A DNA stretch of 64,000 nt from Hymenobacter siberiensis. Its GTDB lineage: Bacteria; Bacteroidota; Bacteroidia; Cytophagales; Hymenobacteraceae. Made by a program: the position numbers and the translations under genes. Below the pieces are notes generated by a model. That model was given only the letters and a program-made list of their open reading frames with translations. It had not been told where the DNA came from and ran no database searches. Below, one piece after another: positions 6,598 through 63,230 of the stretch (position 1 is its first letter; each line of letters opens with the position of its first letter). The stretch covers positions 1,736,001 through 1,800,000 of the forward strand of contig NZ_JAHLZY020000001.1 of assembly GCF_018967865.2 (NCBI RefSeq), in the 5' to 3' direction.

Positions 6598-9500
6598 TTA
6601 CTTTACCACCTCGAACCAGTTCTTCACGCTCGTGCCGTTGGGCAGGGTGAGGATGTAGAAGTAGTTGCCGGCGGGCGTGTTGTCGTCGCCACCCCAGTTG
6701 TTCTGGTAGTTGGTGGTTTTGTACACCTCGCGGCCCCAGCGGTTGAAGATGGTGAAGGTGTTGCCGGGGTAGAGGCCGATGTTGTCGATGACGAGCACAT
6801 CGTTCTGGCCGTCGCGGTTCGGGGTGATGACGTTGTAGGTCTTCACGGCGTTGGCGAAGCTCACGCTGGTTTCGTTCGAGTTCGAGAGCAGCGGGGTGGC
6901 ATCGGTGCTGGCGGCCACTACCCGGAAGTTCTGGCTGAAGCCCAGACCGGTGGCCGTGCTGTTGGGGGCGTTGTTGGAAACGGTGGCCGTTAGCGTCGAG
7001 CCTGATACCGTTATTGTGGGCATCGGAACCAGCAGTTCCGATGCTCCGGCGTCGGTGCGTCGGTAGATGCGGTACTCCTTCACCGCGAAGCCCACGAAGG
7101 CATTCCAGGTGAGGGCCGTGCTGCCTTGGTCGCGGCCGCCGGCGGTGGCGGTAGCAGTGGCTTGCAGGCGGATGGTCTGGGCCACGCCGGTAGTAGTAAC
7201 CGTGCCGCAACCGTTAGTGAGGCTGAGCTGGTACTCGTAGGAATTAGCGTTGGCATCCACCGCGCTGTTGTCGGTGAAAGTGGTGGCCGAAGCCGCAACC
7301 GTACCCACCGGCGCGAAGCTGCCCGCGCCCGCCACGCGGCGCAGCACCTGCACCGGGTTGGGCGTGTTGGCGCTGTTGAGCGTGCCCAGCGAGATGATGA
7401 CGCGGCTGTTGCTGGCGGCATCTACCGAGGCGTTGCTCAGGGTCAGCGTCGGGCTATCGAAGAGGATGGTGCGGATGGTGGCCGGGCCGGTGCAGGACGC
7501 AGGCGCGGCGCTGATTTCAGCAGCGCTCACCGTGTAGGGTCCGGTGGCGTTGAAGCGCACCGTAACCTGGCTGCTGGTGCCGCCGGCTGTGACGGTGCCG
7601 CCCACTACCGTCCACTGGTAGCTGGCGCCGGCCGTGGGGTTGGCAATGGCGTATTGCTGCGGCGTAGCCACATTACACACGAAGCCCGAGCCCGAAATAG
7701 TGGGCGCGGTGGGCGTAGGAGCCACCGTGAATGGCGTAGTGTACACCGGGCCGGTGCAGCCGGCCGAAGTGGTTTCCTGCACCGTAAGAGTGTAGGTGCC
7801 GGGGGCGGGCAGCGTGGCGAGCACGCGGGTATTGCCGGTGCCGGCCAGGGTAGCGCCCGCCAGCTGGAACACGTAGCTGGAGCCGGTGAAGCCGCCGGGC
7901 AGGCCGAAGGTCACGGGGCCGTTGGTCTGGCACACGCGCACCGGGGCGGTGATGGCCAGGGTGGGGCGGGGCGAGGGGTTGATGAGCACCTTGAGGGTAT
8001 CGGAAGTGCCCAGGCAGCGCACGCCGCTGGCGGGGTTGCTGGTTTCCGTCACCACGATTTTGCCGATGGTGGGCACCGTCACCGGAGTCCAGCTCACGGT
8101 CACCGTGTTCTGTAGGGTGCTCACCTGCGTACCGCCGATGATGGTCCAGGCATAGCTGGAGCCGTTGGCAAAAATGCCGCTCACGTAGCGGTAGGGGCCA
8201 TCGGCCTGGCACACGGCGCGCGGCAGCGGGGCTACGGCCACAATGTCGCCGGGGCCGGTGGGCCGCACCGTTTGCAGGCGTGGGTTGATGATGATGGGCA
8301 GGGTAATGGTGTCGGACGAGCAACCCTGGGCATTCAAGCTGAATACCTTGAGGTAGCCGCCGGTGCTGGCCACGCCCCAGTCCACGGTGATGGCCGAGGT
8401 GCCGTTGCCGCTGGCAATGGTACCGCCGCGAATCAGCCAGGTGAAGGCCGTGCCCACGGGATTAGCTACCGAATAGGCAATGCCTGTAACCGTGGGGCAT
8501 ACCGAGGCCGGCCCCACAATAGCGGAAGGCAGCGGGCGCGGGTTGATGGTCACGACCACGGCACTGGTGCTCACGCAACCATTGGCGGTGGTGGCCGTCA
8601 CGGTGTAGGTGCGGGTGATGGGCGCGGCTGTGGTGTTCGAGGCCGTGAACACGGGCTGGGCGGCAGTGCTGCTGCTCAGGCCCGTAGCCGGGGCCCAGCT
8701 ATAGGTGTAGCCGGTGCGGGCCGGGGTACCCAGGGTAATGGTTTTGAGGTCGCAGACGGCGGCGGCGGGGCCGGCATCGGCTACGGCGGCAGGGTTCACG
8801 GTCACGGTCACGGGGCTGGTGGCCACGCAGCCGTTGGCGGTGGTCGCAGTCAGCGTGAAGATGATGGGATTCGGGGTGGCCGTGGTGTTGGTCAGCGTGA
8901 AGGTGGGATTAGCCACGGTGGTGCTGCTCAGGCCGGTGGCCGGGCTCCAGCTGTAGGTGTAGCCCGCTACCGGGGTCGCGCCCAGCGTAATGGTCGAGCC
9001 CGAGCATACGGCCTGGTTAGCCCCCGCCACTGCCACAGCGGCAGGGTTGATGGTGACAATGACCGTCGCAGCCGCGGTGCAGCCGTTGGCGGTGGTGGCC
9101 GTCAGGGTGTAGGTCTGGGTGATTGGGGCGCCGGTCAGGTTGGGCAGGGTCACGGTCGGGTTCAGCACCGAGGCACTGCTGAGGCCGGTGGCCGGGCTCC
9201 AGGCGTAGGTGGTGCCGGCCACGGCCGCGCCGTTGCCGATGGCCACGGGCACGTTCGAGCAGGTCGCCTTGGCCAGGCCGGCATCGGCCACGGCGGCGGG
9301 GTTGATGGTTACTACCACCGTGTTGGTGGCGGTGCAGCCGTTGGCGGTGGTGGCCGTCAGGGTGTAGGTCTGGGTGATGGGGGCGGCCGTTAGGTTGGGC
9401 AGGGTCACGGTCGGGTTCAGCACCGACGTGCTGCTCAGGCCGGTGGCCGGGCTCCAGGCGTAGGTGGTACCGGCCACGGCCGCGCCGTTGCCAATGGCCA

Positions 9501-18057: not shown

Positions 18058-18168
18058 ACAAACGTACAATAAAATCATAGTATGTTGCAAGCATTTGTAA
18101 TAATAGCTACTTTTACTGCCGCGCCGCCGTTGGTGGTGGGCGCGGTTTTCTTTTTTATTCCCCCTCAC

Positions 18169-21100
18169 ATGAAGAACAGTTTACTTACTTCGCTACTGGC
18201 GGCCTGCGGGCTGCTGGCCCCGCTGGCCTTGCCGCTGACGGCGCAGGGCCAGACCCTTACCGTGACGGCGCGAAGCCCGGCCCGCAACGCGCGGGCAGCG
18301 GCGCTCACCACGCCGGTGAGCGTGACGTTTTCGGCCAACCTCAATCCGGCGACGACAGGTAATATTAAGGTGTTTTCGCAGCAGTACCGGGGGCAGCGCA
18401 CGGCCTCGGTGAGCACCAGCGGGGCCACGGCCACGCTCGCGCCGACGGTGCCGACCACGGGCTCGCAGGTAGCGGGCTTCAAGCCGGGCGAAACGCTGTT
18501 CGTGACCGTGCCGGCCACCGTGCAAAGCACGGGCGGCGCGGCGGCCGTCCGGCAGGTCTACCAGTTCACGGCCGCCACCGGCGGCACCGGGAGGGGCAAC
18601 TTCCTGGCCCCGGCCACCAACGCCAACCCCACTGTGGGCAACGGTCCTTACAGCGTAGCGGTGGGGGACGTGGACGGCGACGGCGACCTGGACCTGCTCA
18701 CGGCCAACTTGATTAGCGGCACGGTGAGCGTGCGGCTCAACGACGGGACGGGCAACTTCATTGGCGGCTCCGACCCCGCCGTGGGTGCCAATCCCGGTAG
18801 CGTGGCGGTGGGGGACGTGGACGGCGACGGCGACCTGGACCTGCTCACGGCCAACTCCGGCAGCAACACGGTGAGCGTGCGGCTCAACGACGGGACGGGC
18901 AACTTCATTGGCGGCTCCGACCCCGCCGTGGGCGCCAATCCCCAGAGGGTGGCGGTGGGGGACGTGGACGGCGACGGCGACCTGGACCTGCTCGCGGCTG
19001 CCGGCAGCAACACGGTGAGCGTGCGGCTCAACGACGGGACGGGCAACTTCACTGGCGGCTCCGACCCCACCGTGGGCACCGATCCTACCAGCGTGGCGGT
19101 GGGAGACGTGGACGGCGACGGCGACCTGGACCTGCTCACGGCCAACCAGGGCAGCAACACGGTGAGCGTGCGGCTCAACGACGGGACGGGCAACTTCACG
19201 GCCCCGGCCACCAACCCCAACCCCGCCGTGGGCACCACTCCCAAGAGCGTGGCGGTGGGGGACGTGGACGGCGACGGCGACCTGGACCTGCTCGCGGCCA
19301 ACTTTGACGACAACACGGTGAGCGTGCGGCTCAACGACGGGACGGGCCACTTCACGGCCCCGGCCACCAATGCCAACCTCGCCGTGGGCAACGGTCCTAT
19401 CAGCGTGGCGGTGGGCGACGTGGACGGCGACGGCGACCTGGACCTGCTCACGGCCATCCAAAGCGACAACACGGTGAGCGTGCAGCTCAACGACGGGGCG
19501 GGCAACTTCACGGCCCCGGCCACCAACCCCAACCCCACCGTGGGCGACACTCCTTCCAGCGTGGCGGTGGGGGACGTGGACGGCGACGGCGACCTGGACC
19601 TGCTCACGGCCAATTACTACGACAACACGGCGAGCGTGCGGCTCAACGGCGGGACGGGGCTTGCTATTGCGAGCTTCACGCCCACGAGCGGACCGACGGG
19701 CACGACCATCAGCCTGACGGGCACCGGCCTGACGGGGGCCACGGCCATCACCTTCAGCGGTACCAGCGGCAACGTGGTGACCACGGGCTTCTCCGTGGCT
19801 AGCAGCACGAGCATCACCGGCGTAGTGGTGCCCAGCGGGGCCGTGACGGGCACTTTGACCGTGACCACGCCCGGCGGCACCAGCGCCGCCAGCAGCCAGA
19901 CGTTCACCGTGACGGTTGCGCCGACCATCAGCAGCGCGGCCGACAACCCCGTGGCCCGCGGCGGCCTGGTCACGCTCAATGGCACCGGCCTGGCCGGGGC
20001 CACCGGCGTCACGTTTGCCCGCAGCGGCTTCTCTCCCATTACGCTCACCAGCTTCAGCAGCAACACGGCCACGGCCCTGGCCTTCGCCCTGCCCCTGGCC
20101 GCGCCCAACACCAACGGTGCGTACAACGTGACCGTGACCAATGCCAACGGCACCAGCGCCGCCTTCTCCCTGAGCCTGACCGACAACGTCACCTGGAACG
20201 GCAGCGCCGGCACCGCCTGGGCCACGGCCACCAACTGGAGCCCGCCCGCCGTGCCCAACACCTACCTCAACACCACCGTCGTTGCCGCCGCTGCCCAGCC
20301 CACCGTGACCGGCACCCAGCTGGTGCAGAACGTGACCGTGCAGGCCGGGGCCAGCCTCACACTGGCCGCCACCACGGCCCCCACCACCCAGCTCACGCTG
20401 GGTACCAGCGCCTTTAACAACGGCAGCCTGGTCTTAGCCACCGGCAGCACCCTCACCCAAGGAGCGGGCAGCGAGCTCTACATCACGCAGAATATGACCA
20501 ACAACGGGGCGACGTTCGTCCTTGATGCGACCAGCGAAATCGGCTTCGGCGGGCCCAGCCACGTGCTCAACGGCACGGCCGGCGTCACGTTCCAGACCCT
20601 GACCGTGGGCGAGCAGGGCAGCTACGATTACCTGAGCATAGAGGTCCCCGTGCAGGTGCGCCGCAAGCTGGGCGTGTACAACAACTCCACGACCGCCCTG
20701 GGCGCGGGCGGCAGCCTCACGCTGCTGAGCAACGCCACGGGTACGGCTCTGGTGGAAAACGGCACCGGCAGCACGGTAACCGGCACCGTCACGGTGCAGC
20801 GCTACATCGACCCGACCACCAATGCCGGCCCCGGCTACCGCCATTACAGCGCCCCGGTGAGCAACACCACCGTGGCCGACCTGGCCACCACGACCGGCTT
20901 TACGCCCACGCTCACCACGTCCTACAACGCCTCGGCCACGCCGGGCACCACCACGCCCTTCCCCACCGTGTTCGGCTACGACCAGAGCCGCGTGAGCCTG
21001 GCCAACAGCTCCGCCCCGTTTGACCGCGGCTTCGTGGTGCCCGCCGCCCTGACCACGCCCTTGGCCGTGGGCAAGGGCTACGCCGTGAACATCGCCGGCG

Positions 21101-22185
21101 ACCAGCTCGTCGACTTCGTGGGCACGCTCACCAACGGCGACCAGCCACCCCTGGTCCTGAGCCGCGTGGCCGGCAACTCCGCCGCCGGCTGGCAATTGGT
21201 GGGCAACCCCTACCCCGCCCCACTCAACTACGCGCTGGTGGAAGGCGTGGACCGCGCCAATCTGGACGCGGCCATTTACGTCTATGGCAGCACCAGCCAG
21301 TACGTAGGCACCTACCGCAGCTACGTCAACGGCATGGGCGGTAACCCCGTGCTGCCGGTGGCCCAGGGCTTCTTCGTCCGCGTGAGCGACAGCCAGACCA
21401 GCGGCGCGCTCACCTTCCGCAACAGCCAGCGCCTGACGGCCCCGGACGCCACCGCCTTCCAGCGCGGCGCCGCCGACGCCCGCCCGCTGGTGCAGCTCGA
21501 GCTGCGCGGCAGCACCGGCACCCTCGCCGATGCGCTCTACGCCTACGCCGAAACCGGGGCCACCCCGGCCTTCGATAGCCAGTTCGACGCCGCCAAGCTG
21601 GCCAACACCACGGGCCTGAACCTGAGCAGCACCGCTACCAGCGGCGAGGCGCTCTCGATTGACGCCCGGCCGGCCTTCACCGCCGCCACCGTGCTGCCCC
21701 TGGCCCTGGGCGTGCCCGCCGCCGGCACCTACTCCTTCACCGCCGTGGCGCTGAACAACATCCCCGCGGCCCTGGATGCTTTCCTGAGCGACGCGCAAAC
21801 GGGCCAGACCGTGAACTTGCGCCTGCAGCCGGCCTACGCCTTTAGCGTGAGCCCCACGCAGGCCGCTGTACTCATCAGCGGCCGCTTCACGCTGCACTTT
21901 GCCGCCCGCGCCGCGCTGGCCACCGCACCGGCCCTGAGTGCCGCGCAGGTGGCGTTGTACCCCAACCCGGCCCACGACCGATTTACGGTGCTCGTGCCAA
22001 CCGTGGCCGGGGCCACGCAAGTACACGTCACCCTGCTCAACGTCTTGGGCCAGGTTATGCGTACGCAAGCGGCCGCAAGCGGCACCGCCTTCGCGGTGGA
22101 AACGGCCGGCCTGGCCACCGGCGTGTACACCTTGCGCATGCAGGTGGGCACCGCCACCCTGACCAAGCGCGTGGTCCTGCAATAA
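18169..22185 (+). CDS. VCBS/FG-GAP and IPT/TIG-domain T9SS surface protein
   Basis: A 1338-residue secreted protein. The signal peptide is MKNSLLTSLLAACGLLAPLA. An Ig-like (Big_5-type) domain follows (PARNARAAALTTPVSVTFSA). Then come seven VCBS/FG-GAP repeats with the calcium-loop motif DVDGDGDLDLL, two IPT/TIG-like domains (FTPTSGPTGTTISLTGTGL and a following SSAADNPVARGGLVTLNG unit), a beta-helix-like middle region (NWSPPAVPNTYLNT), and a T9SS type A sorting domain (VALYPNPAHDRFTVLVP to GVYTLRM). It is probably a calcium-stabilised surface adhesin or matrix protein. An upstream ATG at 18082 would precede the signal peptide and is rejected. The gene lies between IS elements. Confidence 0.85.
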   Translation: MKNSLLTSLLAACGLLAPLALPLTAQGQTLTVTARSPARNARAAALTTPVSVTFSANLNPATTGNIKVFSQQYRGQRTASVSTSGATATLAPTVPTTGSQVAGFKPGETLFVTVPATVQSTGGAAAVRQVYQFTAATGGTGRGNFLAPATNANPTVGNGPYSVAVGDVDGDGDLDLLTANLISGTVSVRLNDGTGNFIGGSDPAVGANPGSVAVGDVDGDGDLDLLTANSGSNTVSVRLNDGTGNFIGGSDPAVGANPQRVAVGDVDGDGDLDLLAAAGSNTVSVRLNDGTGNFTGGSDPTVGTDPTSVAVGDVDGDGDLDLLTANQGSNTVSVRLNDGTGNFTAPATNPNPAVGTTPKSVAVGDVDGDGDLDLLAANFDDNTVSVRLNDGTGHFTAPATNANLAVGNGPISVAVGDVDGDGDLDLLTAIQSDNTVSVQLNDGAGNFTAPATNPNPTVGDTPSSVAVGDVDGDGDLDLLTANYYDNTASVRLNGGTGLAIASFTPTSGPTGTTISLTGTGLTGATAITFSGTSGNVVTTGFSVASSTSITGVVVPSGAVTGTLTVTTPGGTSAASSQTFTVTVAPTISSAADNPVARGGLVTLNGTGLAGATGVTFARSGFSPITLTSFSSNTATALAFALPLAAPNTNGAYNVTVTNANGTSAAFSLSLTDNVTWNGSAGTAWATATNWSPPAVPNTYLNTTVVAAAAQPTVTGTQLVQNVTVQAGASLTLAATTAPTTQLTLGTSAFNNGSLVLATGSTLTQGAGSELYITQNMTNNGATFVLDATSEIGFGGPSHVLNGTAGVTFQTLTVGEQGSYDYLSIEVPVQVRRKLGVYNNSTTALGAGGSLTLLSNATGTALVENGTGSTVTGTVTVQRYIDPTTNAGPGYRHYSAPVSNTTVADLATTTGFTPTLTTSYNASATPGTTTPFPTVFGYDQSRVSLANSSAPFDRGFVVPAALTTPLAVGKGYAVNIAGDQLVDFVGTLTNGDQPPLVLSRVAGNSAAGWQLVGNPYPAPLNYALVEGVDRANLDAAIYVYGSTSQYVGTYRSYVNGMGGNPVLPVAQGFFVRVSDSQTSGALTFRNSQRLTAPDATAFQRGAADARPLVQLELRGSTGTLADALYAYAETGATPAFDSQFDAAKLANTTGLNLSSTATSGEALSIDARPAFTAATVLPLALGVPAAGTYSFTAVALNNIPAALDAFLSDAQTGQTVNLRLQPAYAFSVSPTQAAVLISGRFTLHFAARAALATAPALSAAQVALYPNPAHDRFTVLVPTVAGATQVHVTLLNVLGQVMRTQAAASGTAFAVETAGLATGVYTLRMQVGTATLTKRVVLQ
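18652..19660 (+). repeat. seven near-identical VCBS coding repeats
   Basis: Seven units of about 138-156 bp each encode SVAVGDVDGDGDLDLLTAN plus NTVSVRLNDGTGNF. At base level the core of each unit is almost invariant, for example GACGTGGACGGCGACGGCGA in every unit. This indicates recent expansion or continuing homogenisation and makes copy-number change likely. Confidence 0.9.
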
Positions 22186-22603: not shown

Positions 22604-24064
22604 TTATTCGTCAAGTAGTTGCGCCGCCATGTTCACGCCCTCCACGAGCAGGCGCAGGCTCCGGCGGCCGAGCCAGAGGGTTTGCCAACCGGGTGGGCCG
22701 TCCCCTTTGCGGCCCAGGTGCCCACCCAGCGCGGCCAAGGCCAGGTAGACGGCGCGCACCGTGTCCAGGGAGCGGCGGCTTTGGTGGCGCAGCACCCGCA
22801 ACTCGGTGGCCGTCAGGCCGGCCGCCTGGGCCGGCAAGTCCGGTTCGAGCCGGCTTTTCTCGCGTAAATCCACCAGGGCCAGGGCCAATACGCTCAGCAG
22901 GGCCACGGCGGCGAAGAGGCGGGCCGCCGTTTGCAGCTGCAGCTTTTTGGCTCCCAGCCCCGTTTTCAGGGCCTTGTGAAAGTCCTCAATGAGCCAGCGG
23001 CTGGCGTACTGCCGGGCGCAGACCAGGGCCTGGGCGAAGTCGGTGACGGGCTGGTCGCAGAGCAGCAGCCACTCCAGGCCGGGTCCCGGGGCATCCGGCC
23101 CCTGTTCTTCCCAGACCCGCACCAGGCCGACGGGCACGGGCGCTCCCTTTCCCGTGGCCCCGCCCGGCCGCTGCGGGGCCCGCAGGGCCAGGGCCGGGCT
23201 GAAACTTACCTGCAACACCACCGCACGTGCCGGCTGGCGGGGCCGCCCGCGCAGGGCCAGGGAAAACGTGCCGGCGCTGGGCTGCGCCCGCGCCTGCTCG
23301 AAGAGGCGGCCGGCGGCCGTTTTGTCCGCCCCGGCCACCAGGGCCCGGTTTTGGGCGGCCCGCACCACGAAGCCCAGCCCCTGGGCCTGGCACTGCTGCA
23401 AGTGCTCGTAGATGTCGGCCCCGCGGTCGGCCACCACCACCCAGCGCGTACCGGCCGGTGGGCACCCGACGGCCCGCAGGCTCTGGGCCCACAGGGCTGA
23501 CTCGCGGGGCCGCCCCTGGCGGGGGCGGGAGCCGCCGTGGGGGTGGGCCTTCTCGGCGTCGGGCACGGGTTGGCGCACGTGAAACTGCTGGTCGAGCAGG
23601 CCCAGCAGCGGCAGGGCCGGCCGTTTGGCCGCCGGGTCGGGGTCGGTGGCGGGCCAGGCGGCGGCCACCAGCGAGTGCAGCAGCACGCCCTGGCTATAGG
23701 CTTTGCCCGGCCCCACCGGCCCGAGGCCCGCCCGGCGCTCGGCCGCTTCGGGCCAGCTCAGCTCGGTCGTATCCTCGACCAGCAGGTAGGTGCCGGGCGC
23801 CTGCAGTTGCTGGCCCACGTGTTGGCGGTGAGGGGCTTGCAGCGCGTCCGGGGTCGTCTGCGCGTGGCCCAGCAACTGGTAGGCGGCTTTGCCGGCGTAG
23901 GCCTGCCCCTGGCTCAGGCGCGGAATCGTCGCTCCCGGCTCCCGCGCCCAGCCGGCCGCCAGCGTCACCACGCGTCGGTTGCGGCGCACGTCGCCCAGTC
24001 CTACCCCACTAAAGTGCGTGTGCGCCCACTGCGGTGCGTTCCCAAAGTCCGTCGAAATACTCAT
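22604..24064 (-). CDS. IS4-family (Tn5-like) transposase
   Basis: A 486-residue transposase. The N-terminal part (FGNAPQWAHTHFSGVGLGD, RVVTLAAGWAREPGATIP) resembles the DNA-binding domain of Tn5/IS50 transposases. The catalytic residues are Asp in LLVEDTTELSW, Asp in VVVADRGADIYEH, and Glu in YASRWLIEDFHKALK, which fits the Y(2)R(3)E(6)K signature. The frame is intact. The sequence is very rich in Ala, Arg, Pro and Gly, reflecting higher GC than most neighbours, which may reflect its source. Unrelated in sequence to the two 1199-bp IS copies nearby. Confidence 0.9.
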   Translation of the reverse strand: MSISTDFGNAPQWAHTHFSGVGLGDVRRNRRVVTLAAGWAREPGATIPRLSQGQAYAGKAAYQLLGHAQTTPDALQAPHRQHVGQQLQAPGTYLLVEDTTELSWPEAAERRAGLGPVGPGKAYSQGVLLHSLVAAAWPATDPDPAAKRPALPLLGLLDQQFHVRQPVPDAEKAHPHGGSRPRQGRPRESALWAQSLRAVGCPPAGTRWVVVADRGADIYEHLQQCQAQGLGFVVRAAQNRALVAGADKTAAGRLFEQARAQPSAGTFSLALRGRPRQPARAVVLQVSFSPALALRAPQRPGGATGKGAPVPVGLVRVWEEQGPDAPGPGLEWLLLCDQPVTDFAQALVCARQYASRWLIEDFHKALKTGLGAKKLQLQTAARLFAAVALLSVLALALVDLREKSRLEPDLPAQAAGLTATELRVLRHQSRRSLDTVRAVYLALAALGGHLGRKGDGPPGWQTLWLGRRSLRLLVEGVNMAAQLLDE

Positions 24065-24178: not shown

Positions 24179-25834
24179 TTATAGTGATGCCTTCTGCGCC
24201 AGCTTCACGGCTTCGTACATATCCACCACGCCGCCGGTTACGGACAGCGTCGAGAAATCGACCTGCTTCTCGCCGCCGGGCGTCTGCACTTTGGTGTGGT
24301 GCACCTGGGCCGACTGCATGATGATGCGCTTCAAATCGACCGCCGTGAGCTTGGGGAAGTATGATTTCAGGACTGCTGCCACGCCGGCCGTGACGGGCGA
24401 GGCCATGCTGGTGCCGCTTTCGTTGCCGTAGGTGCTGCCGGGCAGCGTGCTGTAGATGCCCACGCCGGGCGCGAACACATCAACGCCCTTTTTGCTGTAG
24501 TTCGAGAAATCGGCGGTCAGGTTCACGTTGTCCTTCGGGCCGGATGCGCCCACCGTGAGCAGGTTCGGGATGGTGGTGTTGTTCAGGTAGAACGAGGCCG
24601 GGTAGTTGTCGGCCACGTCGAGGTTGTGGTTTTCGTTGCCGGCGGCGTGCACCAGCAGCACGCCTTTCTGAGCAGCGTATTTATAGGCCGCTTCCACGGC
24701 GGGGCGCTGGGGCGAGAATTCCTTGCCGAAGCTCATGTTGATAATCTGCGCGCCGTTGTCTACGGCGTAGCGGATGGCGTTGGCAATGTCCTTGTCGCGC
24801 TCATCGCCGTCGGGCACGGCCCGCACCATCATGATGCGCACCGGGTCGGGGGCGAGGCCCATGATGCCGAGGTTGTTGGTGCGCACCGCCGCGATAATGC
24901 CCGAAACGTGGGTACCGTGCATGGGGTCGGGGCCGTGGAGGTCGTTGTTGCCGTAGAAGCGCTGACTCATGTCCTCGGGGTCGTCCTTGATGATGTCGGC
25001 CCGGGGATTAAAGCTCAGGTTCAGCGAATTGTCCAGCATGCTGCGCTCCTGCTTCATGCCCTCGTTCAGTTCCTTGAGCAGGGCATCGGCATCGGCGGCC
25101 CCGGTCTGGCGCATCATGTCGAGCATGCCGGCCACGGCGCGTTTCAGGTTGGGGTCGCTGGTGTTGGCATTTTTGAGGGCGGTGGTGTCGAGCTTGTCGG
25201 TGCCCAGCGCCTGCTTCATGTTGGTCACCATCATGGTGAGAGGCCCCGACATTTCTTCGACCTGCTTGCTGCGCTCGGTTTCCTCCTTGAGGCGGGCCGA
25301 ATACGCTTTCTCGGCCTTCTGATAGAGCGCGTAAGTAGCCTTGTCGGCCGGCTTCACGGTCTTGGCCGTGATGCCCTTGAAGCGCTTGCGGCCGGCGGCC
25401 ACAATGCGCGTCATCTCCAGGGTTTCGGCGTTCACGTTGCGGCCGTCGGCCCCGCCGAGGAAGTTCCAGCCGTGCACGTCGTCGATGTAGCCGTTCTTAT
25501 CGTCGTCGATGCCGTTGCCGGGAATTTCACCCCGGTTCACCCACAGCACGGGCTTGAGGTCGACGTGGGCCGTGTCAATCCCGGAGTCAATGACGGCCAC
25601 GATAACGGGCGTTGGAATCAGGTTTTTCAGAATTTCGGCGTAGGCGCGGGTGGCCCCCACGCCGGGCACGTTGTCGAGCTGCGGGTCTTTGAGGTACCAC
25701 TGGGCGGCGCTCATATCGCCGGTGGGGGTGGCGGGAGTGGGGGAGGGTGCATTCACCGCCTGGGCCTGGACCAAGGCGGGCAGCGCCAATAAGGCCAGCG
25801 AAAGCGACCAGCGGCGGAAGGGAAGAATCGTCAT
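24179..25834 (-). CDS. S8 family (subtilisin-like) serine protease
   Basis: A 551-residue secreted subtilase with signal peptide MTILPFRRWSLSLALLALPA to VQAQ. The triad is Asp83 in VIDSGIDTAH, His309 in MHGTHVSG, and Ser476 in SGTSMASPVTAG; the oxyanion Asn is in HAAGNENH. The Asp-His distance of 226 residues is much larger than in simple subtilisins: an insertion of roughly 150 residues, largely charged and helical (AEKAYSARLKEETERSKQ), sits between them. That pattern occurs in Bacteroidota cell-envelope subtilases. No T9SS domain is seen, so it is probably periplasmic. The start at 25834 gives a proper signal peptide; the longer in-frame reading to 26065 is rejected. Confidence 0.9.
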   Translation of the reverse strand: MTILPFRRWSLSLALLALPALVQAQAVNAPSPTPATPTGDMSAAQWYLKDPQLDNVPGVGATRAYAEILKNLIPTPVIVAVIDSGIDTAHVDLKPVLWVNRGEIPGNGIDDDKNGYIDDVHGWNFLGGADGRNVNAETLEMTRIVAAGRKRFKGITAKTVKPADKATYALYQKAEKAYSARLKEETERSKQVEEMSGPLTMMVTNMKQALGTDKLDTTALKNANTSDPNLKRAVAGMLDMMRQTGAADADALLKELNEGMKQERSMLDNSLNLSFNPRADIIKDDPEDMSQRFYGNNDLHGPDPMHGTHVSGIIAAVRTNNLGIMGLAPDPVRIMMVRAVPDGDERDKDIANAIRYAVDNGAQIINMSFGKEFSPQRPAVEAAYKYAAQKGVLLVHAAGNENHNLDVADNYPASFYLNNTTIPNLLTVGASGPKDNVNLTADFSNYSKKGVDVFAPGVGIYSTLPGSTYGNESGTSMASPVTAGVAAVLKSYFPKLTAVDLKRIIMQSAQVHHTKVQTPGGEKQVDFSTLSVTGGVVDMYEAVKLAQKASL

Positions 25835-25946: not shown

Positions 25947-26345
25947 CTAGGCGACCGGCGCGGGCGTGGGCAGCCCCACCACCACCAGCAACAGGGCATC
26001 TTCGGCGGCGCGGGTGAGGTGCCAGTAGCGCCAGAGGCTGCGGTATTCCCATGTGAGCAGGTCAAATTCGCCGAGGCGCACGGCCACGCGGGCGGCGGCC
26101 CGGGCGGGCAGTCCGGATGCTTCGGCCAGCTCGGCGGTGGTGCGCTCGGGGTGCTGCATCAGGGCCAGCAGCATCAGGCTTTGGCGCAGACGGCCGCGCT
26201 TGTCGCGCACTTTATAGGTCTTCAGCAGCCAGTTTTCGAGGCGGGCCTGCACGGCGGCGGGCTCCTGGCTGAGTGGGGGCGGTGGCGGCGGGTTGTCGCG
26301 CTCGGCCACGCGGCGGGCAAAGGCGGCGGGTAGGGTTTCGGGCAT
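25947..26345 (-). CDS. small winged-helix-like putative DNA-binding protein
   Basis: A 132-residue soluble protein from ATG at 26345 (MPETLPAAFARRVAERD); an in-frame ATG at 26372 is possible. After a Pro-rich run (PPPPPPLSQEP) there is a helical region LENWLLKTYKVRDKRGRLRQ, followed by LMLLALMQHPERTTAELAEASGLPARAAARVAVRLGEFDLLTWEY. This has the rhythm of a winged helix: helix, turn-helix with TTAELAEASGL, recognition helix, and a strand-like wing. I do not recognise a named family. The 21-bp repeat array begins immediately upstream of its start, which makes an operator relation plausible but unproven. Confidence 0.6.
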   Translation of the reverse strand: MPETLPAAFARRVAERDNPPPPPPLSQEPAAVQARLENWLLKTYKVRDKRGRLRQSLMLLALMQHPERTTAELAEASGLPARAAARVAVRLGEFDLLTWEYRSLWRYWHLTRAAEDALLLVVVGLPTPAPVA

Positions 26346-26371
26346 AGCGTATTGATGGAAATGTAAATCCA

Positions 26372-26623
26372 CGGGCTAATTTAATTCAATTTCAGGCTAA
26401 GTAATTGCAACACCTGGCTAATTAACTACATAAACCGGCTAATTAGTTAAAATACCTGGCTAATTAATCGCAGAATCTGGCTGAATAACTACTAAACCAA
26501 GCTGATTAATTGCAATGCCTGGCTAACTAGCCGCAATATCTGGTTAACTAGCCAAAATGTCTGGCTAATTAACTACAATGTTTGGCTAACTAACCACAAC
26601 ACCTGGCTAAATAACTGCTCCCG
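26372..26623. repeat. 12-unit non-coding array with exact 21-bp period
   Basis: Twelve degenerate units share the core GGCTAAnTAA. The core starts at 26374, 26395, 26416, 26437, 26458, 26479, 26500, 26521, 26542, 26563, 26584 and 26605, every step exactly 21 bp (two helical turns). The rough consensus is CTGGCTAATTAACTACAATAC. Some units contain a dyad such as GGCTAACTAGCC. Units differ at many positions, yet spacing never slips. Every reading frame is closed by stops somewhere in the array, so it is not a coding repeat. It is strongly AT-rich against its surroundings and lies between the divergent genes at 25947-26345 and 26840-29491. Confidence 0.9.
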
Positions 26624-26644
26624 TACTGTTGCGCGACCGTGCGC

Positions 26645-26791
26645 CCCGTTGCTGGCGCGCGTCTGCGACACGTGCCGACCGGCCCCGAGCCTCTGGCTCG
26701 GGTAAGGGGTTACGTATGGCAGCGTCTTCATTGCCCGAGCCACAGGCTCACCGCCAGTCAGCACGTGTCGCAGACGTGCGCCAGCAACGGG
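26645..26791. repeat. long inverted-repeat element with inner hairpins
   Basis: Arms of 31 bp, 26645-26675 and 26761-26791, begin CCCGTTGCTGGCGC and have one mismatch. Inside are a local hairpin CCGAGCCTCTGGCTCGG (26685-26701) and a related half-site CCCGAGCCACAGGCTCA. It lies between the 21-bp array and the PIG-L gene. It is probably another dispersed element, although no second copy is in the window. Confidence 0.75.
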
Positions 26792-26839
26792 AGGGCCGGC
26801 GGCTGGTAACTTCACGCCCTCAACCCCGGTTTCCCGCGC

Positions 26840-29491
26840 ATGTTCCGACTCCTCCGCCCCATTGCCGTCCTCACGGCATTCCTCACTCTTCATTCCTCAT
26901 TCTTCATTGAGACGAAGGCCCAAACGCCGAAGTCCTACACTTCCTCCGAAATCCTGCTGGGTCTCAAGAAGCTCAACGTCCTCGGTTCGGTGATGTACAT
27001 CGCCGCCCACCCCGACGACGAAAATACCCGCCTCATCGCCTACATGGCCAACGAGCGCCTGCTCGAAACCAGCTACCTGAGCGCCACCCGCGGCGACGGC
27101 GGCCAGAACCTCATCGGCCCCGAGCTGCGCGAGGGCCTCGGCGTGATTCGCACGCAGGAGCTGCTCGCGGCCCGGCGGCTCGACGGCGGCCGGCAGTTCT
27201 TCACCCGCGCCAACGACTTCGGCTTCTCCAAAACCTCCGACGAAACCTTTCGCATCTGGGACAAGGAGCAGGTGCTCGCCGACATGGTGTGGGTCATCCG
27301 CCAGCGCCGGCCCGATGTGCTCATCACCCGCTTTCCGCCCGATGCCCGCGCCGGCCACGGCCACCACCAGGCCAGCGCCATCCTCGCTGCCGAAGCCTTC
27401 GACGCCGCCGGCGACCCCAAGCGCTTCCCCGAACAGCTCCAGTACGTGCAAGCCTGGCAGCCCAAGCGCCTGCTTTGGAACACCGGCAGCTTCTTCGTGA
27501 AGCCCGGCGACAACATGGACGGCTACCTCCGGCTCGATGCCGGCGGCTACAACCCCCTGCTGGGCCAGAGCTACGGCGAAATCGCGGCCCGCAGCCGCTC
27601 CAACCACCGCAGCCAGGGCTTCGGCTCGGCCGCCCAGCGGGGCGAGGCGCTGGAGTATTTCCAGCTGGTGAAAGGCGCGCCGGCCACCAAAGACCTGTTC
27701 GAAGGCGTGGACCAGAGCTGGAACCGGGTGCCCGGCGGCGCGGCCGTGGGCAAGCTCATCGAGGAGGTGATTCGCAAGTATGACCCGAGCAACCCCAGCG
27801 CGAGTGTAGCGGGGCTACTGAAGGTGCGGGCAGCACTTGCAACAAAGCCAATTTCTTGGAGCGGCAATGCTCCAGACTTGTCCTTCTGGAAAACGGAAAA
27901 AACACAACAGGTAGAAAGTCTGATTAAAAACTGTCTTGGATTGGGGTTAGAAGCTACTGCAACGCAAGTTTCTGTTGCTGAAGGTCACGCCTTTCAAGGG
28001 GGACAATCTTTTCAGGTGAACCTAGAGGTAATAAACAAGTCTCATGTCCCGGTTACCGTTACCAGCATTCATGGACTAGGTTTTACGTATGATAGTGCGC
28101 TTGTTCTACCGTTCAATAAACTAATTAGCATTAAGAGAAAGGGTGAAGCAGGCTTTTCTGGTAAGGAGACACAACCATACTGGTTGCAGATTCCGGGTTC
28201 TATTGGTATGTATTCGGTGCCAGAATCGCTAAGTTTTCCTTTTAGCGAAGGTGCAGCTGTGTTAATGGCTCAATCGAAAGCTGGTGTCAGCCAGTTACCA
28301 GCCGACGAGCCTACCGGAAGTTTTGGCTACATGCTTTGGCGACAATCCTTAATAGGAATGCCTGAAAATCCGCCGGCAGGTGGTGTTTGTTTCATAGTAC
28401 AAGTAAATGGGAGTAGGTTATTCTATTCCGTCCCCGTCCAATACAAGCACACCGACCCCGTGCTGGGCGAACTCTACCAGCCGCTGGCCGTGGTGCCGCC
28501 CGTGCTAGTGAACCTGCCGCCCGCCCGTTCCTACGTCTTCGCCGATGCCCAGCCCAAGACCGTGCCCGTCACGCTGCGGGCCGGGCGCGCCGGGGTGAGC
28601 GGCAGTCTGGCCCTGGCCCTGCCCGCCGGCTGGAAGTGCGAGCCCGCCACCGTCCCTTTCGCCCTCGCCGCCAAAGACGAGGAGCTGACCGTGAACTTCC
28701 AGGTGCAGCCCCTGGCCGGGGCAGCGCCCGGCCGCGCCGAGCTGCGGGCATCTGCCACCGTGGCCGGCCAGGCCTACGCCCGCGGCATCCAGAAGATTGA
28801 GTACCCGCACATCCCCACGCAGTTCCTCTTCCCCGAGGCCGTGGCCCCGCTGGTGAAGCTCGACCTGAAGCGGCGCGGCCAGAACGTGGCCTACCTCATG
28901 GGTGCCGGCGACGAAGTGCCCGACGCCCTGCGCCAAATCGGCTACACCGTCACCCTGCTCAAGCCCGAGGAAATCAGCGCCGCTCGCCTCAAGGAGTTCG
29001 ATGCGCTGGTGGTCGGCATCCGCGCCTACAACACCGTCGAGGCCCTGAAAACCAAGCAGCCCGACATCCTCAAATACATCGAACAGGGCGGCAACGTGGT
29101 GGTGCAGTACGTGGTCGACCGCGGCACGGTGCTGCCCGAAATCGGCCCCTATCCCATGACACTTTCCCGCGACCGGGTCACGGTGGAAGACGCCCCCGTG
29201 ACGCTCTCGAAGCACCCGCTGCTGGCCGCCCCCAACAAAATCACCGAGCAGGATTTCAAAGGCTGGGTGCAGGAGCAGGGCCTCTACTACCCCTCGAAGT
29301 GGGACCCGAAATACCAGACCGTGATTTCCAGCAGCGACCCCGGCGAGGCGGCCAAGGAAAGCGCCATTCTGGTCACGGACTACGGCAAGGGCCACTACAT
29401 CTACACGGGCCTGTCGCTGTTCCGGGAGCTGCCGGCGGGCGTGCCGGGGGCGTACCGGCTGATTACGAACATGATTTCGTACGGGAAGTAG
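26840..29491 (+). CDS. PIG-L family deacetylase
   Basis: An 883-residue secreted protein. The signal peptide is about residues 1-28 (FRLLRPIAVLTAFLTLHSSF). The N-terminal LmbE/PIG-L catalytic domain has AHPDDE at 56-61, ATRGDGGQN near 83, and HGHHQAS near 176. These bind zinc and hydrolyse N-acetylglucosamine-type amides. The middle and C-terminal parts are beta-rich and end in a ThuA/GATase-like region (DALVVGIRAYNT, VVVQYVVDRG, HYIYTGLSLFRELP). Bases 27840-28440 are clearly AT-richer than both flanks, as if the middle third had been replaced. The sugar substrate is unknown. The start at 26840 gives a good signal peptide. Confidence 0.85.
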   Translation: MFRLLRPIAVLTAFLTLHSSFFIETKAQTPKSYTSSEILLGLKKLNVLGSVMYIAAHPDDENTRLIAYMANERLLETSYLSATRGDGGQNLIGPELREGLGVIRTQELLAARRLDGGRQFFTRANDFGFSKTSDETFRIWDKEQVLADMVWVIRQRRPDVLITRFPPDARAGHGHHQASAILAAEAFDAAGDPKRFPEQLQYVQAWQPKRLLWNTGSFFVKPGDNMDGYLRLDAGGYNPLLGQSYGEIAARSRSNHRSQGFGSAAQRGEALEYFQLVKGAPATKDLFEGVDQSWNRVPGGAAVGKLIEEVIRKYDPSNPSASVAGLLKVRAALATKPISWSGNAPDLSFWKTEKTQQVESLIKNCLGLGLEATATQVSVAEGHAFQGGQSFQVNLEVINKSHVPVTVTSIHGLGFTYDSALVLPFNKLISIKRKGEAGFSGKETQPYWLQIPGSIGMYSVPESLSFPFSEGAAVLMAQSKAGVSQLPADEPTGSFGYMLWRQSLIGMPENPPAGGVCFIVQVNGSRLFYSVPVQYKHTDPVLGELYQPLAVVPPVLVNLPPARSYVFADAQPKTVPVTLRAGRAGVSGSLALALPAGWKCEPATVPFALAAKDEELTVNFQVQPLAGAAPGRAELRASATVAGQAYARGIQKIEYPHIPTQFLFPEAVAPLVKLDLKRRGQNVAYLMGAGDEVPDALRQIGYTVTLLKPEEISAARLKEFDALVVGIRAYNTVEALKTKQPDILKYIEQGGNVVVQYVVDRGTVLPEIGPYPMTLSRDRVTVEDAPVTLSKHPLLAAPNKITEQDFKGWVQEQGLYYPSKWDPKYQTVISSSDPGEAAKESAILVTDYGKGHYIYTGLSLFRELPAGVPGAYRLITNMISYGK

Positions 29492-42674: not shown

Positions 42675-42802
42675 AAGGGTTGAGTGTTGAATGTTGAGTG
42701 TTGATTGAGCTTGCTAAATTCCTCTCAATCCGAAATCAGGGTCAAAGCTACCCCGCAACGAAGCATTCCTCATTCAACCCTCAACATTCAACCCTCAAAA
42801 CT
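42675..42802. repeat. word-repeat inverted element, GTTGAGTGTTGAATGTTGAG
   Basis: On the left, GGGTTGAGTGTTGAATGTTG and GAGTGTTGATTGAG repeat the words GTTGA and GTTGAGT. On the right, CATTCAACCCTCAACATTCA and ACCCTCAAAA are the complement. The two halves can pair. It fills the gap between the symporter start and the MBL gene. Confidence 0.7.
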
Positions 42803-63122: not shown

Positions 63123-63230
63123 TTTTTAGCTGTTAGCCATTAGCTGTTAGCTTTGTCGGCACTTCCCGAGGAGCCGCTCGGTCGCCACAAAAAAGCTAAC
63201 AGCTAACAGCTGATGGCTAACAGCTAAAAA
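63123..63230. repeat. word-repeat inverted element, TTAGCTGTTAGC
   Basis: The left part, TTTTTAGCTGTTAGCCATTA then GCTGTTAGCTTT (63123-63154), pairs with AAAGCTAACAGCTAACAGCT then GATGGCTAACAGCTAAAAA (63192-63230), the right part having one extra AACAGCT unit. It ends directly before the TTG start of the glycosyltransferase gene. Confidence 0.8.

Follow-up and report, generated by a model that had tools for sequence, protein, structure and literature searches.

Helically phased 21-bp arrays beside small winged-helix genes point to a candidate family of self-addressed DNA-protein scaffolds in Hymenobacter

Three described systems come closest to the locus reported here. TubR represses transcription of its operon and assembles into a filament along the repeats upstream of it (PMC5016525). 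AspA of pNOB8 starts from a single 23-bp palindrome upstream of the aspA gene and spreads along more than 200 bp of DNA (PMC5120986). The parS sites of pSM19035, with 9, 7 and 10 iterons, overlap promoters, and the repressor that binds them doubles as the partition protein (PMC5016525). Here we describe a 21-bp repeat array and the small gene that it precedes in a 64,000-nucleotide stretch of Hymenobacter siberiensis (assembly GCF_018967865.2, contig NZ_JAHLZY020000001.1, positions 1,736,001 to 1,800,000; hereafter the window). Like TubR and tubC, the pair combines a small winged-helix protein with direct repeats upstream of its own operon (PMC5016525). The central idea of a first-pass annotation of this DNA, a phase-selected array of the neighbouring small DNA-binding protein, is supported by comparative tests on sequence: because gene and array co-occur, motif and protein diverge together and motif matches fall in phase, the protein very probably reads its own array and the helical phase is very probably under selection. 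Literature searches, judged by their listings, turned up no description of such arrays in Hymenobacter.

The array occupies 26374-26625 on the minus strand, that of the gene it precedes, and comprises 12 units that in gene direction read roughly GtagTTAaTTAGCCaGntaTT. The unit starts follow at 26374, 26395 and so on to 26605, exactly and without slip, as the first-pass annotation had it. The GGCTAA core that it saw twelve times is exact in nine units, whereas units 6, 7 and 9 carry GGCTGA, AGCTGA and GGTTAA, and the likeness of the 12th unit to the others fades after about 26618. Self-identity at lag 21 reaches 0.66 over 252 bp, the top value in the window, and lags 42 and 63 give 0.65-0.66. 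With 38% G+C vs 62% for the window, the array has a leave-one-unit-out score of 238 bits, and three shuffles are all at or below -15. The sequence GGCTAACTAGCC is found in a single exact copy at 26521, with one-base-off copies at 26542 and 26584. Reading frames across the array had been called closed, which is nearly right: one minus-strand open reading frame (ORF) of 106 aa (26573-26893) enters the distal end. The gap between array and start codon measures 28 bp rather than about 27 (26346-26373, minus strand), and a putative promoter or leader would be expected here or in the proximal units. Genome-wide, exact GGCTAA-N15-GGCTAA pairs number six, all inside this array. When 400 kb of the same genome was sampled for periodicity at 21 or 42 bp, four stretches reached z>=7 (z 7.1-10.1), some matching a real array in strength; reading their coding status by eye, we take all four for repeated protein codons. 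H. siberiensis PAMC 29290, a near strain, carries an identical array, so that unit turnover between close strains is not observable.

The gene itself (25947-26345, minus strand, stop codon included) encodes a protein of 132 aa and is recognised from its ORF, its homologues and a structure model. AlphaFold modelled the protein with a mean pLDDT of 87.1 as an N-terminal helix followed by a proline-rich stretch and a winged-helix core, and by this model it has a MarR-type winged-helix fold. Most structural matches were MarR/ArsR regulators; AspA and TubR also appeared, as two of many hits with comparable Z, and a profile search of solved structures returned ArsR-type chains at E 1e-5. No Pfam model reached its cut-off with this query (PF12802, 16.9 vs 27 bits; PF10098, another family, 19.1 of 34.6 bits). 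Among 22 family members, 7 show weak Pfam MarR_2 similarity, and some members carry the automatic name "MarR family". Residues 81-93 (26067-26105, minus strand) are the predicted recognition helix, taken from the secondary structure of the model and assigned by analogy with the MarR/ArsR fold.

A search with the single sequence found family matches in 8 of 59 genomes, its own counted. A profile (A1) built from the alignment of 22 members was then run on 120 Hymenobacter genomes and matched 37 of them at E<=1e-3; in 27 the best E was below 1e-15, which we call strong family matches, and the matched genomes beyond these 27 hold what look like generic winged-helix genes or fragments. Several genomes carry multiple copies, the highest strong copy number being that of G061 (eight match rows, seven strong), followed by G105 with six strong rows; G025 and G089 have six rows each, some of them fragments or weak. 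Across 390 genomes from the order, one strong match lay outside the genus (G412, another genus of the same family, E 6e-40), and that gene is also preceded by a 42-bp periodic array. Database searches matched 174 proteins, and among the 120 matches listed all with an organism in the name are Hymenobacter.

For the upstream regions we took 67 family places, 66 of them with at least 250 bp upstream. After removal of L046, which a contig end cuts, of four loci fetched a second time and of the fragments or generic genes L096, L123, L124 and L125, 58 loci were kept for counts, including L122 with its gene in two pieces. The search of homologues for upstream 21-bp arrays, a check named in the first-pass annotation, gave a strong array (score >=60) at 49 of the 58 loci, for which the best of three shuffles was never above 13. 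Six further loci have weaker, displaced, 41-, 42- or 43-bp arrays: the period is 43 bp at L107, where it is clear (z 10.1), and at its relative L102, where it is weaker (z 5.7); it is 41 bp at L104 (z 5.7), and L100 has an array with a 42-bp step (z 7.2). At L106 the 21-bp array is weak (score 56), and at L087 a weak array (score 48) is, by eye, pushed upstream by a palindrome. The remaining three are degenerate at most. With plain autocorrelation, 40/58 loci reached z>=7, all at period 21, 42 or 43, vs 12 of 3000 control windows from the same loci, all at period 21, 41, 42 or 43; these 12 are taken to stem from the short-unit repeat of L121, since it is the sole 21/42-bp stretch of that strength outside the arrays there. 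At z>=5 the counts were 52/58 and 809/3000, and because this threshold is not specific, z>=7 and the leave-one-out score were used. Arrays contain 5-14 units and end at a median of 57 bp from the most upstream ATG (range -38 to 160, 47 loci). Their G+C averages 44%, with some at 57-61% (L048, L064, L118).

The tie between gene and array was also seen at a locus where both can be missing. In the window, the module lies in a gap framed by a divergent PIG-L domain gene (26840-29491, plus strand) and a downstream subtilase (S8) gene (24179-25834, minus strand), both identified with Pfam. The PIG-L gene is present in 118/120 Hymenobacter genomes, with or without the module, and 30 of these loci were fetched for comparison. 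The small gene was found at six of the 30; five have an array within 700 bp of the PIG-L start (z 9.2-12.3), and the array of the sixth (L141) is farther off, seen separately as L039 (z 7.4). The 24 loci without a detectable gene have no 21/42-bp array within 700 bp of PIG-L: neither period was ever the best above z 5.2, and one such locus gave z 7.3 at period 18. Across the 30 PIG-L loci, array and gene are thus present or absent together. Ten gene-less S8/PIG-L gaps were inspected, some holding other ORFs and some nearly empty; in G079 a gene fragment lies near PIG-L (L099) and no array was seen at its PIG-L locus (L150). The gap at L148 (G077) contains an ORF resembling, by reading, a REP-associated tyrosine transposase.

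The flanking genes bear on a different explanation, in which the array is an operator shared with the divergent gene, here PIG-L, or belongs to a regulon with isolated sites. The divergence of PIG-L that the first-pass annotation pointed out is true here, and a GC3 heuristic applied to 44 loci, few of them PIG-L loci, scores 24 upstream neighbours as divergent; array-like stretches lacking a gene in genome G036 could moreover serve as trans targets. By the same GC3 heuristic, however, 20 of the 44 upstream neighbours run in the direction of the module and read towards the array, and family members sit at about seven other loci, so that the divergence is incidental. Neighbours are unrelated from locus to locus and no class is common to all. 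Besides PIG-L and S8, neighbours that we identify by reading of their proteins are presumably MutS2, PurM, nicotinate phosphoribosyltransferase, bestrophin-like and FUSC-like proteins, a phytanoyl-CoA dioxygenase, an MMPL-like transporter and a protein with WG repeats. Since the neighbours differ by locus, the small gene is the sole gene common to the arrays, and PIG-L as a common target was rejected. The persistence of PIG-L with or without the module also argues against a shared operator. No other close site was found in the own genome by a search that recovers 4 of the 12 known sites, so weak or degenerate distant targets could still exist. Taken with these points, a shared operator or regulon is improbable.

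Units out of phase are rare. In 53 array calls (49 distinct), motif matches were in phase 524 times vs 2 out of phase, with a motif trained on in-phase units. In a power test, one random base put mid-array produced out-of-phase matches in 32/49 arrays, compared with 1/49 real arrays. Identity between units averages 0.55, so they are not fresh duplicates. Such a pattern is what a face-of-helix constraint set by a protein would leave. The expectation that spacing is conserved in homologous loci was borne out in that the step is kept while the unit sequence is replaced, but not without variation, as double units of 41 and 43 bp exist; these variants are still close to four helical turns. A neutral slippage minisatellite, standing beside the gene by descent, would also be tandem and intergenic and vary in unit number, as these arrays do (5-14); it would not readily leave hardly any out-of-phase units at this low unit identity, nor adjacent units less alike than units two apart with an order reaching out to eight units, nor a period that outlives its sequence, and we regard it as the least credible of the alternatives.

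Unit identity at even steps (2-8) was 0.61, 0.59, 0.58 and 0.58, falling little with distance, and at odd steps (up to eight) it was lower, at 0.53, 0.52, 0.51 and 0.52. In many family members, therefore, two kinds of unit alternate in a 42-bp order. Dyads had been noted in some units of the window. Within 21 bp, self-complementarity at p<0.05 was found for 4/49 motifs, near chance, so a dyad inside the unit is not a family feature; at the 42-bp level it was found for 11/49, above chance, and neighbouring units therefore look inverted at a minority of loci, for example L049. Curvature was considered as the primary feature and rejected on base composition and dinucleotide power, with no curvature model run. 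WW-dinucleotide power was raised at all tested harmonics of 21 (4.3-fold at 10.5, 3.2 at 21, 3.0 at 5.25 and 2.9 at 7); because of this and of the arrays with 57-61% G+C, phased A-tracts are not an obvious common denominator.

A function of the array as RNA, whether as a structured leader or as small RNAs, was weighed by folding. On the gene-sense strand the array of the window folds better than its shuffles (z -3.3), and z was below -2 in 11/49 arrays in sense and 13/49 in antisense, above chance. Yet most arrays have no excess fold, the mean z over 49 arrays is -0.63 in sense and -0.74 in antisense so that the gene strand is not favoured, the own antisense strand gives z -1.7, and a step of two helical turns has no obvious meaning for RNA. 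With no overall folding trend, RNA function was rejected as highly improbable.

The unit sequence changes even at one place in the genome. TTAGCC units with AG were found at L038, L058, L080, L061 and L043, and other units read TTCCTGAcAAGtC (L040, L060), TTTGACGG (L042), CTAnnAGGTCAG (L105) and TTTAGgCCGtGTA (L084); all of these loci except L043 occupy one PIG-L/S8 gap. The motif follows the protein: mean motif similarity was 0.29 for pairs below 30% protein identity (204 pairs), 0.68 at 75-90% (18 pairs) and 0.85 above 90% (2 pairs). The most similar motif pairs all had the same orientation relative to the gene (39/39), indicating that motif polarity is kept. The Mantel correlation with the motif was 0.32 when the predicted recognition helix was compared and 0.34 when the remainder of the protein was, each at p=0.002, the floor of 500 permutations. 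In G061, which has seven motifs, each scored 0.76-0.94 of the maximum on its own array, the training set, and at most 0.29 on foreign arrays. Motif similarity within genomes was not clearly below that of between-genome pairs of equal protein identity, and the lack of overlap in G061 may therefore simply follow divergence; orthogonality as the outcome of within-genome selection was not supported.

From these comparisons we infer a self-contained module of gene and array in which binding, assembly and autoregulation would follow one another. The MarR/ArsR-like winged-helix protein would recognise one site per 21-bp unit, a step for which co-occurrence, co-divergence and joint presence or absence argue. 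Sites two turns apart and of fixed polarity would place the molecules on one face of the DNA, lined up head to tail where the sites share a direction and alternating at the minority of loci with inverted-looking neighbours. Cooperative assembly could then yield a nucleoprotein filament over about ten sites. Because the array adjoins the start of the gene, the first output of the filament would be transcription of the gene itself, most simply as tight, switch-like autoregulation. That the protein assembles along the array and controls its own promoter, in the manner of TubR-tubC though without a motor gene, is in our judgement the probable account, held with some reserve.

Several observations weigh against this account. 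The sites are mostly non-palindromic within the unit, whereas palindromes are the usual targets of MarR/ArsR dimers. It is also rare for an autoregulatory operator to need some ten sites. Partial tests (correlations 0.19 and 0.23) leave both the predicted recognition helix and the remainder of the protein as predictors of the motif, with no advantage for the helix; it is not singled out, and support for the idea that it alone sets the motif was not obtained. Across 47 upstream regions, each 120 bp long, the Bacteroidetes-type -7 element TAnnTTTG turned up only 7 times, and the promoter was therefore not placed. Three loci of one clade (L092, L093, L095) have a degenerate array at best, with drifting phase; L095 offers 279 bp upstream only, and L092 and L093 are described by eye. 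The expectation that the array never stands without the gene holds for the 24 gene-less PIG-L loci but not for G036, where two array-like stretches on contig C117 (L126) lack an adjoining family gene. One, at about 2430-2820, has a TTAGCC unit resembling that of the window; the other, at about 7800-8010, directly follows the stop codon of a long gene and could alternatively reflect repeats of a protein encoded in an overlapping frame. These stretches may be remnants or trans targets.

Comparison with the described systems leaves TubR-tubC as the nearest working parallel, by analogy and not by membership, since motor or partner genes are missing. The TubZRC feature of a direct-repeat array upstream of the gene for the binding protein is present at these loci. 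No TubZ or other motor gene is common to them, the neighbours here being PIG-L and S8; tubulin-family proteins gave one match each in G000, G061 and G105, none at a module. Unlike TubR-tubC, the modules are chromosomal and occur in several non-overlapping copies per genome, and genes that occupy one and the same locus can differ in motif. AspA shares the winged-helix protein with a site upstream of its own gene and is a structural match to the 132-aa model, whereas it uses a single palindrome in place of many written-out sites; an overlapping downstream parB/parA pair as in AspA-ParBA is not common to the loci, and S8 lies downstream here. The Omega/parS system resembles the modules by iteron arrays at promoters bound by a repressor, and is unlike them in being plasmid-borne and built of heptads; omega is a ribbon-helix-helix protein, in contrast to the winged helix and 21-bp units here. 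MarR/ArsR regulators share the fold and the weak MarR_2 similarity, with the query itself below the Pfam cut-off, and their typical operators are one or two palindromes vs the long arrays here. These parallels also allow a centromere-like or nucleoid-anchoring array, in which a filament like that of TubR/tubC or AspA would mark or tether a chromosomal site and autoregulation would be secondary. We consider such a role unlikely, though less so than the shared operator.

Other candidate identities were tried and rejected. The module is not regarded as mobile: plasmid, phage and viral-contig collections gave no family match, and clades of the protein tree largely track fixed loci, with the PIG-L and MutS2 loci each holding more than one clade. 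Nor does the locus look like an iteron-controlled replicon, which would carry a Rep initiator gene on an autonomous replicon: a single 132-aa winged-helix protein is encoded here on the main contig, of 4.64 Mb, and has no plasmid match. As an anti-phage system the module found weak PADLOC matches, each in at most 4/22 members.

The surroundings of the module show further features. A palindromic dispersed repeat (26645-26791; no strand assigned) with 61-nt arms, 87% complementary, adjoins the far end of the array; similar stretches occur at several other genome places, and it is not counted in the module. Block 27836-28427 of the PIG-L gene does not align to H. siberiensis PAMC 29290, its flanks being about 98% identical, and this middle block looks like an allelic replacement; many genus-wide PIG-L matches break near residues 462-504. 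A 486-aa ORF at 22604-24064 resembles a transposase by reading, and the PAMC 29290 locus lacks, at this position, a counterpart of the sequence before 24145. Short-unit tandem repeats in facing, terminator-like pairs lie at 63126-63227 and 42679-42798 (units TTAGCTG / AGCTAAC and GTTGAGT / TCAACCC), with AGCTAAC-type repeats also elsewhere in the genome, and a 1367-aa ORF at 18082-22185 contains a 156-bp repeat, present about seven times, whose translation gives units of the DVDGDGDLDLL type.

The sequence comparisons suggest that self-addressed DNA-protein scaffolds of this kind form a family not described before. More tentatively, and as a possibility we would not yet call probable, the modules may form a new class of chromosomal element, a gene with its own phased address array that occurs in up to seven non-overlapping copies at fixed housekeeping loci. 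Protein and array would switch their word together at nearly fixed geometry, the filament itself would be the product, serving to anchor the chromosome or as a switch that locks itself, and the rapid replacement of words would reflect conflict or pressure against cross-talk, as it does in centromeres and in the immunity repressors of phages. The roughly fifty natural pairs of protein and array, of nearly constant geometry and free sequence, make up a data set for the recognition code of winged-helix proteins and for the concerted change of a ten-site word, and pairs that do not overlap within a genome would lend themselves to use as multi-site tags. For Hymenobacter, they pose the question of what selects a module of one gene that has no constant partner except its array.
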